A DNA stretch of 64,000 bases from Haladaptatus cibarius D43 (lineage in GTDB: Archaea; Halobacteriota; Halobacteria; Halobacteriales; Haladaptataceae): contig NZ_JDTH01000002.1 of the NCBI RefSeq assembly GCF_000710615.1, positions 364,082 to 428,081 on the forward strand. The letters run 5' to 3'. This document shows, piece after piece, positions 37,434 through 39,840 of the stretch; position 1 is the first letter of the stretch, and each line of letters begins with the position of its first letter. The position numbers and the translations under genes were made by a program. The notes beneath the pieces are model-generated. The model had not been told where the DNA came from. It ran no database searches and worked only from the letters and a program-made list of their open reading frames with translations.

Positions 37434-39530
37434 ATGCCGGAGTCTGACCTCTCGAAATACGGAGGTGACCCGGTGACTATCTCGTTCGATTCTTGTGAGG
37501 ACGACACGGGAATCGTGATACGCGACCCGATAGAGCGTCGGACGTGTACGCTTCGGACGCCCGATGTCGTCCGACCGGTTTCTACCGACACTCGTTCGTG
37601 CTGTTTTCCGGTCGATGACGCGGTCGTCGTCTCGACCACTCGTCTAACGCTTCCGACACCCGCAGCGGTGTACGTTCGCGACGAAAACGGGGAAATGCTG
37701 TCCAGTGTGGAGGGAATCGACTACGAGGAACTGCCGGAGGGGGCGTACAGCATCGAACTTTGTGCCTCCATTAAGCTGTACGTCATCGCCGAGGCGGAAC
37801 TGAGCGTTACCGCATCGTTCGACCACGTCGTCTTGGAGTTCGGGTCGGAAACCGAGGTGTTCGTCGGCGGCCGGTCGCCCCATCGCAACCCGGCGGGAAC
37901 CGTGACGACGACGACCGACCCGGTCGATATGATGGCTGCGATTTCGGCGTTCGGTTCGGCGCTGAAAACGACGAGTCCGGAGCGCTCGTTTCCAACCCTG
38001 CGAGGACACCCTCCCACGGTCGAACTCGGCGACGAACTCCACGTGCCGGACGATTTGCGCCCGGCAAGAACCGGCATTCAAATCGAAGTACCGCCCGAGT
38101 ACGAGTACATCTTCCCGGTTGCGCCACTGGTCTATTATTTCGGTGCAGAGTTGGTTCCGGGGAACGTTCCGCGAATCATCGCAGACGGGTTCGAACAGCC
38201 GCTTCAGACGACGCGCGGATTCGAAGAAGAAGTAGAGCGCGTCCTGAAACAGACGTTTTTCCTCGACTGCGTGACTCGCACGGAAGGGCTGTATCCTATC
38301 GAGTTACACGAGCGCCAACAGGTCGAATCGGTGGTGAGTTTCGACTTCGAACGCCTCTACAACGCTTCGCTGGCGGAGCAGTTGAAAGCGTATCTTTCGA
38401 TACCATACGAATGTATCGAAGAACACCTTCCGGATTGGCAGTTGACCACCCACGTCGCGCCAACCGCCGAAAACATCGAGATGGTGCCCTTCCTCGTGGA
38501 CGACCTTGCAGTGATTCGAACGCCGGAGGCGAGAGAGGTGTCCGCATCCGCGATACAAGTTCCAGCAGTCGAGGAGTTCGTCCGAAGCACGGATTCCACG
38601 CGAAGCACGGCTGAGTTGCCGTCGAGCCCCCGGTCGCTGGTCGAACCGGAAACGACGGATTCGCTGGAGCAGGTGTGGGTCGGAGAGGACGCCCCGGTCG
38701 GTGCAAGCAAAGCGACGACGACAGCGTTTCGCAACCGTTTGGAACGGAGGCCGACAGGGGAAATCGACATCACGGTCGTCTGTAACGACGAGCAGATGCA
38801 CGAAGAGCGAAATCTCGCGGATTCGGTGTACGGTTCACGCGAGGATATGCCGTTCGACGTGACGGTTCATCACGAACTCACCGTTTCGGAACTCCGGGGC
38901 GTCATCGAATCCGAGACGCAGTTTCTCCATTACATCGGTCACATCGACGAGAAAGGGTTCGAATGCGCAGACGAGATGCTAGACGCTAGAACGCTCGATA
39001 CGGTCGGCGTAGAAGCCTTCTTGCTCAACGCCTGCCAGTCATACGAACAGGGAATGGCGCTCATTGACGGGGGGGCAATCGGTGGCGTCGTCACGTTGAG
39101 CGACGTGGTAAATAGCGGTGCAGTCCGAGTCGGAAAAGCGATGGTACGACTGCTGAACCGCGGATTTCCACTCTGGGCGGCACTGGACATCGCCCGCAAC
39201 CGAAGCATCATCGGCGGGCAGTACATCGTCGTCGGCGACGGGAGCGTGGATATGGTTCAGACGGAAAGCGCAGTTGCACTCCTATTCGAAATAAAGAAAA
39301 AAAGAGAGCTGTTCGAACTAGAACGAAAAACGTATATCGGCGGTGCGGACGGACTCGGTGGGATAGTCAAACCACAAACCTCGGATAGCATGTTTCTCAC
39401 GTCCGGGTCGCTCCCGACGGTAACACTCTCGGCAGACGAACTTGAGAAACATCTCACTTTGGAAAACGTTCCCGTCAGCGTCGATGGTCAACTGCTGTGG
39501 AGTGAGGAAATTACTGTTTCTGAACTGTGA
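37434..39530 (+). CDS. CHAT/caspase-like domain protein
   Basis: A 698-residue protein. The first 460 residues read as a large, strand-rich, acidic region of unknown fold. Residues about 465-610 have the CHAT-type caspase-like pattern: a strand ITVVCND, then LHYIGHIDEKGF with His499 and His503, and AFLLNACQSYEQG with Cys534, followed by GGVVTLSDVVNSGAVRVG and the helix MVRLLNRGFPLWAALDIAR. His503 and Cys534 are the likely catalytic pair of a cysteine protease; relatives act in cell death and CRISPR-guided protease systems. No TPR or CRISPR gene lies beside it. It is tail-to-tail with a tiny membrane-peptide gene three bases away. Confidence 0.7.
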   Translation: MPESDLSKYGGDPVTISFDSCEDDTGIVIRDPIERRTCTLRTPDVVRPVSTDTRSCCFPVDDAVVVSTTRLTLPTPAAVYVRDENGEMLSSVEGIDYEELPEGAYSIELCASIKLYVIAEAELSVTASFDHVVLEFGSETEVFVGGRSPHRNPAGTVTTTTDPVDMMAAISAFGSALKTTSPERSFPTLRGHPPTVELGDELHVPDDLRPARTGIQIEVPPEYEYIFPVAPLVYYFGAELVPGNVPRIIADGFEQPLQTTRGFEEEVERVLKQTFFLDCVTRTEGLYPIELHERQQVESVVSFDFERLYNASLAEQLKAYLSIPYECIEEHLPDWQLTTHVAPTAENIEMVPFLVDDLAVIRTPEAREVSASAIQVPAVEEFVRSTDSTRSTAELPSSPRSLVEPETTDSLEQVWVGEDAPVGASKATTTAFRNRLERRPTGEIDITVVCNDEQMHEERNLADSVYGSREDMPFDVTVHHELTVSELRGVIESETQFLHYIGHIDEKGFECADEMLDARTLDTVGVEAFLLNACQSYEQGMALIDGGAIGGVVTLSDVVNSGAVRVGKAMVRLLNRGFPLWAALDIARNRSIIGGQYIVVGDGSVDMVQTESAVALLFEIKKKRELFELERKTYIGGADGLGGIVKPQTSDSMFLTSGSLPTVTLSADELEKHLTLENVPVSVDGQLLWSEEITVSEL

Positions 39531-39533
39531 AAT

Positions 39534-39668
39534 TTACGGGCCGCTGGTTCCGACTGCGTAAGCGCCCGCCACGCTTCCGGCCTGCGAGAGCAAGACCATG
39601 ATGGTGAACAGCACGCCAATCATTTGGGGATTCTCTTCGAGGTACGAGGTGATGTCGTGTTCTGCCAT
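39534..39668 (-). CDS. 44-residue single-helix membrane peptide
   Basis: The protein reads MAEHDITSYLEENPQMIGVL then FTIMVLLSQAGSVAGAYAVG and TSGP: a charged amphipathic head and one membrane helix. I believe it belongs to a small haloarchaeal family found with this type of CHAT-like protein, but I cannot verify that here. It is convergent with the CHAT gene with three bases between their stops, and its promoter is in the very AT-rich 39670-39800 stretch. Confidence 0.7.
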   Translation of the reverse strand: MAEHDITSYLEENPQMIGVLFTIMVLLSQAGSVAGAYAVGTSGP

Positions 39669-39840
39669 ACAAAACCATTTCATCTGCAAATATATTAAAT
39701 TTTCTATTTCAAATTGAGAAATATATGTCGCATTTGTTGGTATTGTTTTATTATCTCTTTTTTAGAAATCATGACATATAGTTCATTTGTGAGATAGTAT
39801 CTAGCGATGGCGTTATTTCATCCCGACACAAAAGGCGAAC

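Follow-up and report, generated by a model that had tools for sequence, protein, structure and literature searches.

The window, a 64,000-nucleotide stretch of the genome of Haladaptatus cibarius D43, contains two convergent genes, one encoding a CHAT-type cysteine peptidase and the other a microprotein (Table 1). The stop codons of the two genes are separated by 3 nt (39531-39533), in agreement with an earlier note that had described a 44-residue, one-helix peptide gene lying tail-to-tail with a CHAT/caspase-like gene. The AT-rich promoter region that the same note placed beyond the peptide gene contains a BRE/TATA-like element, located about 20 to 36 nt 5' of the peptide's ATG.

Table 1. Features of the CHAT-microprotein locus, in positions of the window
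Feature	Position	Strand	Remarks
CHAT-type (clan CD) cysteine peptidase gene	37434-39530	+	698 aa; intact; from translation
Catalytic His503 codon (HYIGH)	38940-38942	+	Invariant in 37/37 homologues
Catalytic Cys534 codon (NACQS)	39033-39035	+	Invariant in 37/37 homologues
Partner microprotein gene, DUF7503	39534-39668	-	44 aa; sequence MAEHDITSYLEENPQMIGVLFTIMVLLSQAGSVAGAYAVGTSGP
Last nine residues of microprotein, AYAVGTSGP	39537-39563	-	x-Gly-Pro tail after A/V-x-A/G signal-peptidase-like motif
BRE/TATA-like promoter of peptide gene (GAAAA TTTAATATATTT)	~39688-39704	-	In AT-rich stretch

The peptidase and its partner

The CHAT protein comprises an N-terminal beta-rich and alpha/beta part (residues ~1-365), a linker, the CHAT peptidase domain (~410-610), and a C-terminal beta region. 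The earlier note had assigned His503 and Cys534 to CHAT-type motifs, an assignment borne out by their invariance, and had proposed structure prediction as a check. The resulting AF2 model (mean pLDDT, 81.8; pTM, 0.83) resembles known clan CD peptidases: in Foldseek comparisons against the PDB it matched separase (5fby, E 3.5e-7; 5fc2, about 4e-7), with further matches to SAVED-CHAT (8tl0), the TPR-CHAT of Craspase (8d9g), gingipain, and caspases, including caspase-11. The N-terminal domain had no confident match in the PDB, the best being a weak one to a GH31 beta-sandwich (TM-score, 0.16).

In a Pfam search, the window protein fell below the cut-off of the CHAT model PF12770. Weak matches to this model occur in 14 of 30 relatives in the family (best E 6e-5), and the best score within the organism's own genome is 19.3 bits, compared with a cut-off of 24. 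Because the window protein misses the Pfam model, its assignment is based on the catalytic motifs and the predicted fold, which mark it as a divergent clan CD peptidase outside PF12770, with an intact dyad and predicted activity. This predicted His/Cys peptidase is presumably located in the cytoplasm.

The microprotein consists of a short N-terminal segment, one hydrophobic helix, and a 17-residue tail that starts Q-A-G and ends in Gly-Pro. It belongs to DUF7503, matching the family model at 7.6e-20 (score, 70.7 bits; cut-off, 27). Among Haladaptatus orthologues its pN/pS is 0.16, and values for partner microproteins range from 0.16 to 0.34, indicating purifying selection at the protein level. 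Across 136 aligned upstream regions, an A-rich and then T/A-rich block is conserved in position at about -38 to -28; the placement of the BRE/TATA-like element is consistent with leaderless transcription of the microprotein gene.

Pairing across haloarchaea

The H. cibarius genome encodes eight CHAT homologues. It also has five DUF7503 genes, each of them convergent with a CHAT gene. The same arrangement, whose co-occurrence the earlier note had proposed to follow across haloarchaea, extends to other genomes. In a control survey of 22 further genomes, DUF7503 genes occurred in 16, where all 22 were convergent with a CHAT homologue, 21 of them within 300 bp, and none was present in the four genomes of this survey that lack CHAT homologues. 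Haloferax volcanii was positive for DUF7503 in this search. A convergent partner was found at all 79 evaluable loci among 80 named CHAT loci (79 with downstream sequence), which are a nonrandom sample because they were picked as the best matches to the first CHAT clade. When every retrieved homologue whose dyad is intact is counted, 136 of 151 have a recognizable partner and 15 do not.

CHAT homologues are present in 366 of the 392 haloarchaeal genomes sampled, and the CHAT-microprotein pair is near-universal in haloarchaea and old within the class. Among named species, H. litoreus and H. pallidirubidus are the nearest to H. cibarius, and the window locus is syntenic with theirs; some CHAT copies are situated on large plasmids. 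These co-occurrence counts, together with the comparison to control genes described below, exclude a chance neighbor. The earlier note had named variable catalytic residues and rare adjacency as grounds against its proposal; the homologues show conserved residues and near-constant adjacency instead, which supports a functional pairing of protease and peptide.

A few loci depart from the common arrangement. In one genome (L124, G276:C1:1638500-1645500), the CHAT gene and its convergent DUF7503 gene lie 868 bp apart, suggesting an insertion between the partners. In H. cibarius itself, two intact CHAT paralogues (L039, G000:C1:644069-646162; L042, G000:C2:977873-979963) have no recognizable partner peptide. 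Beyond Halobacteria, the sample includes four CHAT relatives, all without a GP-tailed microprotein; two distant relatives from another class of the same phylum (L204 and L205) are convergent with an ordinary gene of 148 to 170 aa.

Neither the CHAT protein nor the microprotein matched any PADLOC defense model, and a known anti-phage system was rejected on this basis, as was viral carriage after a scan of viral contigs returned no relative. A toxin-antitoxin system would be expected to be sporadic and mobile, and the breadth of CHAT occurrence and the synteny of the window locus speak against this assignment. In the openly accessible literature we found no description of DUF7503, of haloarchaeal CHAT proteins, or of their pair.

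The orientation of the two genes raises the possibility that they are linked at the level of RNA, their convergent 3' ends yielding mutually antisense transcripts and the peptide being secondary. The genes are always convergent, and at 56 of 148 loci their stop codons either share 4 nt or lie end to end with no gap. However, a good number of loci have a gap of 60 to 130 nt, and the selection acting on the encoded proteins is strong, both in the pN/pS of the partners and in the tandem arrays described below, making this explanation extremely unlikely.

Loss of the dyad is suggested to accompany loss of the partner. None of 30 CHAT homologues lacking the dyad has a true partner (one apparent match being an unrelated frame), compared with the great majority of those with the dyad; because the dyad-less proteins form only two lineages on the tree, representing two events and not thirty, the association is graded as suggestive. 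These proteins (L140-L143 and L175-L202) form a large dyad-less clade and a second, small dead clade within the clade carrying the FLNACGS motif, with no GP-tailed partner.

A third gene recurs beside the pair. It encodes DUF7504 (PF24336; motif LLVVGSVP), which, like DUF7503 (PF24335), is a Pfam entry of unknown function. DUF7504 lies directly upstream of CHAT at 45 of 175 loci (L077 and 44 others) and at five of the eight CHAT genes of H. cibarius, with additional copies elsewhere in this genome (e.g., G000:C2:674391-675080). It was rejected as an obligate third partner and is considered optional because it is upstream at just these 45 loci and is missing at the window.

Conservation of the tail

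The feature that recurs among the partners is the C-terminal end. A convergent open reading frame ending in GP is found at 68 of 77 CHAT loci, compared with 4 of 432 other genes on that DNA taken as controls (P about 4e-69); nine partners in the first clade have other ends (GT, TIS, TVG). An alignment of 58 tails from DUF7503-like partners, restricted to the most frequent tail length, has Gln at -16 in all 58, Gly at -2 likewise in all 58, and Pro at -1 in 55. The GP end was rejected as a by-product of CHAT coding, in that the Gly and Pro codons lie past the CHAT stop in nearly all loci.

Outside the tail, the partners vary. In a second CHAT clade (Natrialbales-type, with the FLNACGS motif), which is about 32% identical to the first, the partners have no helix and a body unrelated to DUF7503, match no Pfam family, and end in AKRVS(S/T)YGGP. 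The helix is likewise missing from two Halococcus partners, whose C terminus reads ACTYSGP. These helix-less partners, and those of Haloplanus, occupy the same position beside intact CHAT genes, and the helix-less and array-type partners fall outside DUF7503 in Pfam searches. Membrane insertion was consequently rejected as a universal function, since partners without a helix exist.

In Haloplanus, the tail itself has been multiplied. Two lineages (L012 and L026) retain the helix between an N-terminal MSExDSGTV and a tail of the GNSGAISGP kind. In sister lineages, the promoter and N terminus are unchanged, the helix has been lost, and the tail has become a series of tandem head-to-tail units such as YTADGNGGGISGP, numbering 2, 4, 5, 7, 10, or 13. 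The helix-bearing forms suggest one or two conversions from helix to array within the genus. Arrays of this type, with 13-aa units and invariant cores, occur at eight loci (L013, L014, L015, L022, L023, L029, L063, and L076), and in a genome of the Haloplanus type (G172), which has just one CHAT gene, with an intact dyad, an HMM search detected no DUF7503 helix peptide.

Within each array, the 11-residue core exists in one amino acid version (pooled pS, 0.43; pN, 0.000), and its codons differ freely, including both AGC and TCC codons for serine. Because the cores are identical in amino acids and varied in codons, each unit is held by selection as protein. Haloplanus has amplified and preserved the tail alone and in doing so shows which nine to twelve residues matter. 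Across all partners compared, the x-Gly-Pro tail is the sole part of the microprotein that is nearly always kept, and for this reason the tail, rather than the membrane helix, looks like the target of the protease.

These patterns bear directly on the interpretation offered in the earlier note, which likened the pair to caspase-gasdermin systems in which a protease releases a membrane killer. In bacteria, genes for caspase-like proteases adjoin gasdermin genes, and clan CD peptidases act on such membrane effectors. By analogy, the CHAT protein would cut the membrane peptide and the membrane would be permeabilized, and the hydrophobic helix of the window partner is in keeping with such a role; as in those systems, a protease gene adjoins a gene with membrane potential. 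However, the haloarchaeal partner at the window has only 44 aa and is no gasdermin, and partners in Haloplanus, Halococcus, and the second clade have dropped the helix and kept the tail, so that a conserved membrane-active partner is not found in this family. A near-universal distribution would also be unusual for a suicide module. The killing function is therefore very improbable: the note's functional pairing is supported well beyond its own claim, and its membrane-killer analogy is not supported as a general function because the helix is not the conserved part.

The tail could alternatively be a signal in its own right, the microprotein being the precursor of a short secreted nonapeptide (e.g., AYAVGTSGP or GNTGVIYGP) freed by signal peptidase or by CHAT. 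The CHAT protein would then act as a processing enzyme or receptor, and the Haloplanus arrays would be multicopy precursors like that of yeast alpha-factor. In DUF7503-like partners, an A/V-x-A/G pattern does precede the tail at the position expected for cleavage, with a uniform 17-residue spacing, and amino acid invariance within arrays despite synonymous drift is typical of multicopy peptide precursors. Nevertheless, a helix resembling a signal peptide is missing from the partners of Haloplanus and of the Natrialbales type, and the genes that recur nearby, which are partly annotated, include no evident exporter or receptor. We regard a secreted peptide as quite improbable.

Proposed recognition of the tail by the peptidase

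The reading that we tentatively put first is that of a dedicated peptidase-microprotein pair, in which the CHAT protein recognizes, and most likely cleaves, the tail. The function of the microprotein would reside in its C-terminal x-Gly-Pro tail, and the remainder would merely present it, by way of a membrane helix, a soluble segment, or tandem copies. The CHAT peptidase would recognize the Gly-Pro tail and most likely cut the microprotein, the tail being either the piece released or the place of docking, in the way that Csx29 has Csx30 as its dedicated substrate. The convergent pairing, the intact dyad, the predicted fold, the tail counts, the second-clade partners, and the Haloplanus arrays favor this reading, as does, suggestively, the missing partner of dyad-less CHAT proteins. 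Binding of the tail, its cleavage, and any downstream effect are steps that we infer. The A-x-A pattern before the tail counts against this reading, in that the tail could be extracellular and thus apart from a cytoplasmic CHAT protein, as do the 15 intact CHAT proteins with no recognizable partner and the nine first-clade partners with other ends.

The closest precedent is provided by Csx29, the CHAT peptidase of the type III-E CRISPR Craspase, which cleaves a dedicated partner encoded nearby, Csx30 (PMC10028731). Both systems combine a CHAT peptidase bearing a His/Cys dyad with a dedicated neighboring partner, and the match of the window model to 8d9g extends this likeness to the predicted fold. 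They differ in that Csx29 is RNA-guided through Cas7-11 and has a larger partner, whereas the haloarchaeal partner has about 45 aa, a Gly-Pro end, and a convergent gene.

Tails of paralogues within a genome are 24% identical, compared with 70% between orthologues across species. Paralogue-distinct tails that are kept among orthologues are consistent with cognate specificity, and simple co-inheritance would give the same pattern.

The same one-to-one pairing, with a distinct tail for each paralogue, would also fit a tail that occupies the active site of CHAT, or its vicinity, and serves there as a docking peptide or pseudosubstrate. The helix or the array would then cluster the CHAT proteins and hold them off or activate them by proximity, and membrane anchoring and tandem repetition are alike in concentrating one short motif. 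Separase is among the nearest folds, and its partner securin behaves in this way, lying in or near the separase active site. Separase and securin resemble the haloarchaeal pair in joining a clan CD peptidase to a dedicated partner; the enzyme is, however, eukaryotic and far larger, securin is a large disordered protein, and the likeness to CHAT is by predicted fold alone. Most known partners of CHAT peptidases are substrates, and only for this reason is a tethering or inhibitory tail, which we consider somewhat unlikely, ranked second. We favor a substrate over a pseudosubstrate or tether, and either of these over a secreted peptide or a killer.

A broader extension, which is doubtful and which we think clearly unlikely, is that the pairs constitute class-wide archaeal proteolytic signaling, with each CHAT protein reading a paralogue-specific GP tail displayed at the membrane, by a soluble carrier, or in an array resembling a multicopy precursor of a peptide hormone. 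If true, haloarchaea would possess peptide-coded signaling or a caspase-type switch, a possible basis of archaeal caspase-like activity. Over a decade ago, a study of Haloferax volcanii reported stress-linked caspase-like activity in this haloarchaeon, with no gene homologue (PMC3615174). The CHAT proteins are a candidate source of that activity. Nearly every haloarchaeon has intact genes for peptidases of the caspase fold, mostly beside a candidate substrate or ligand, and, because candidate genes and partners are now identified, the question of caspase-like activity can be put to a direct test in an archaeon amenable to genetics.
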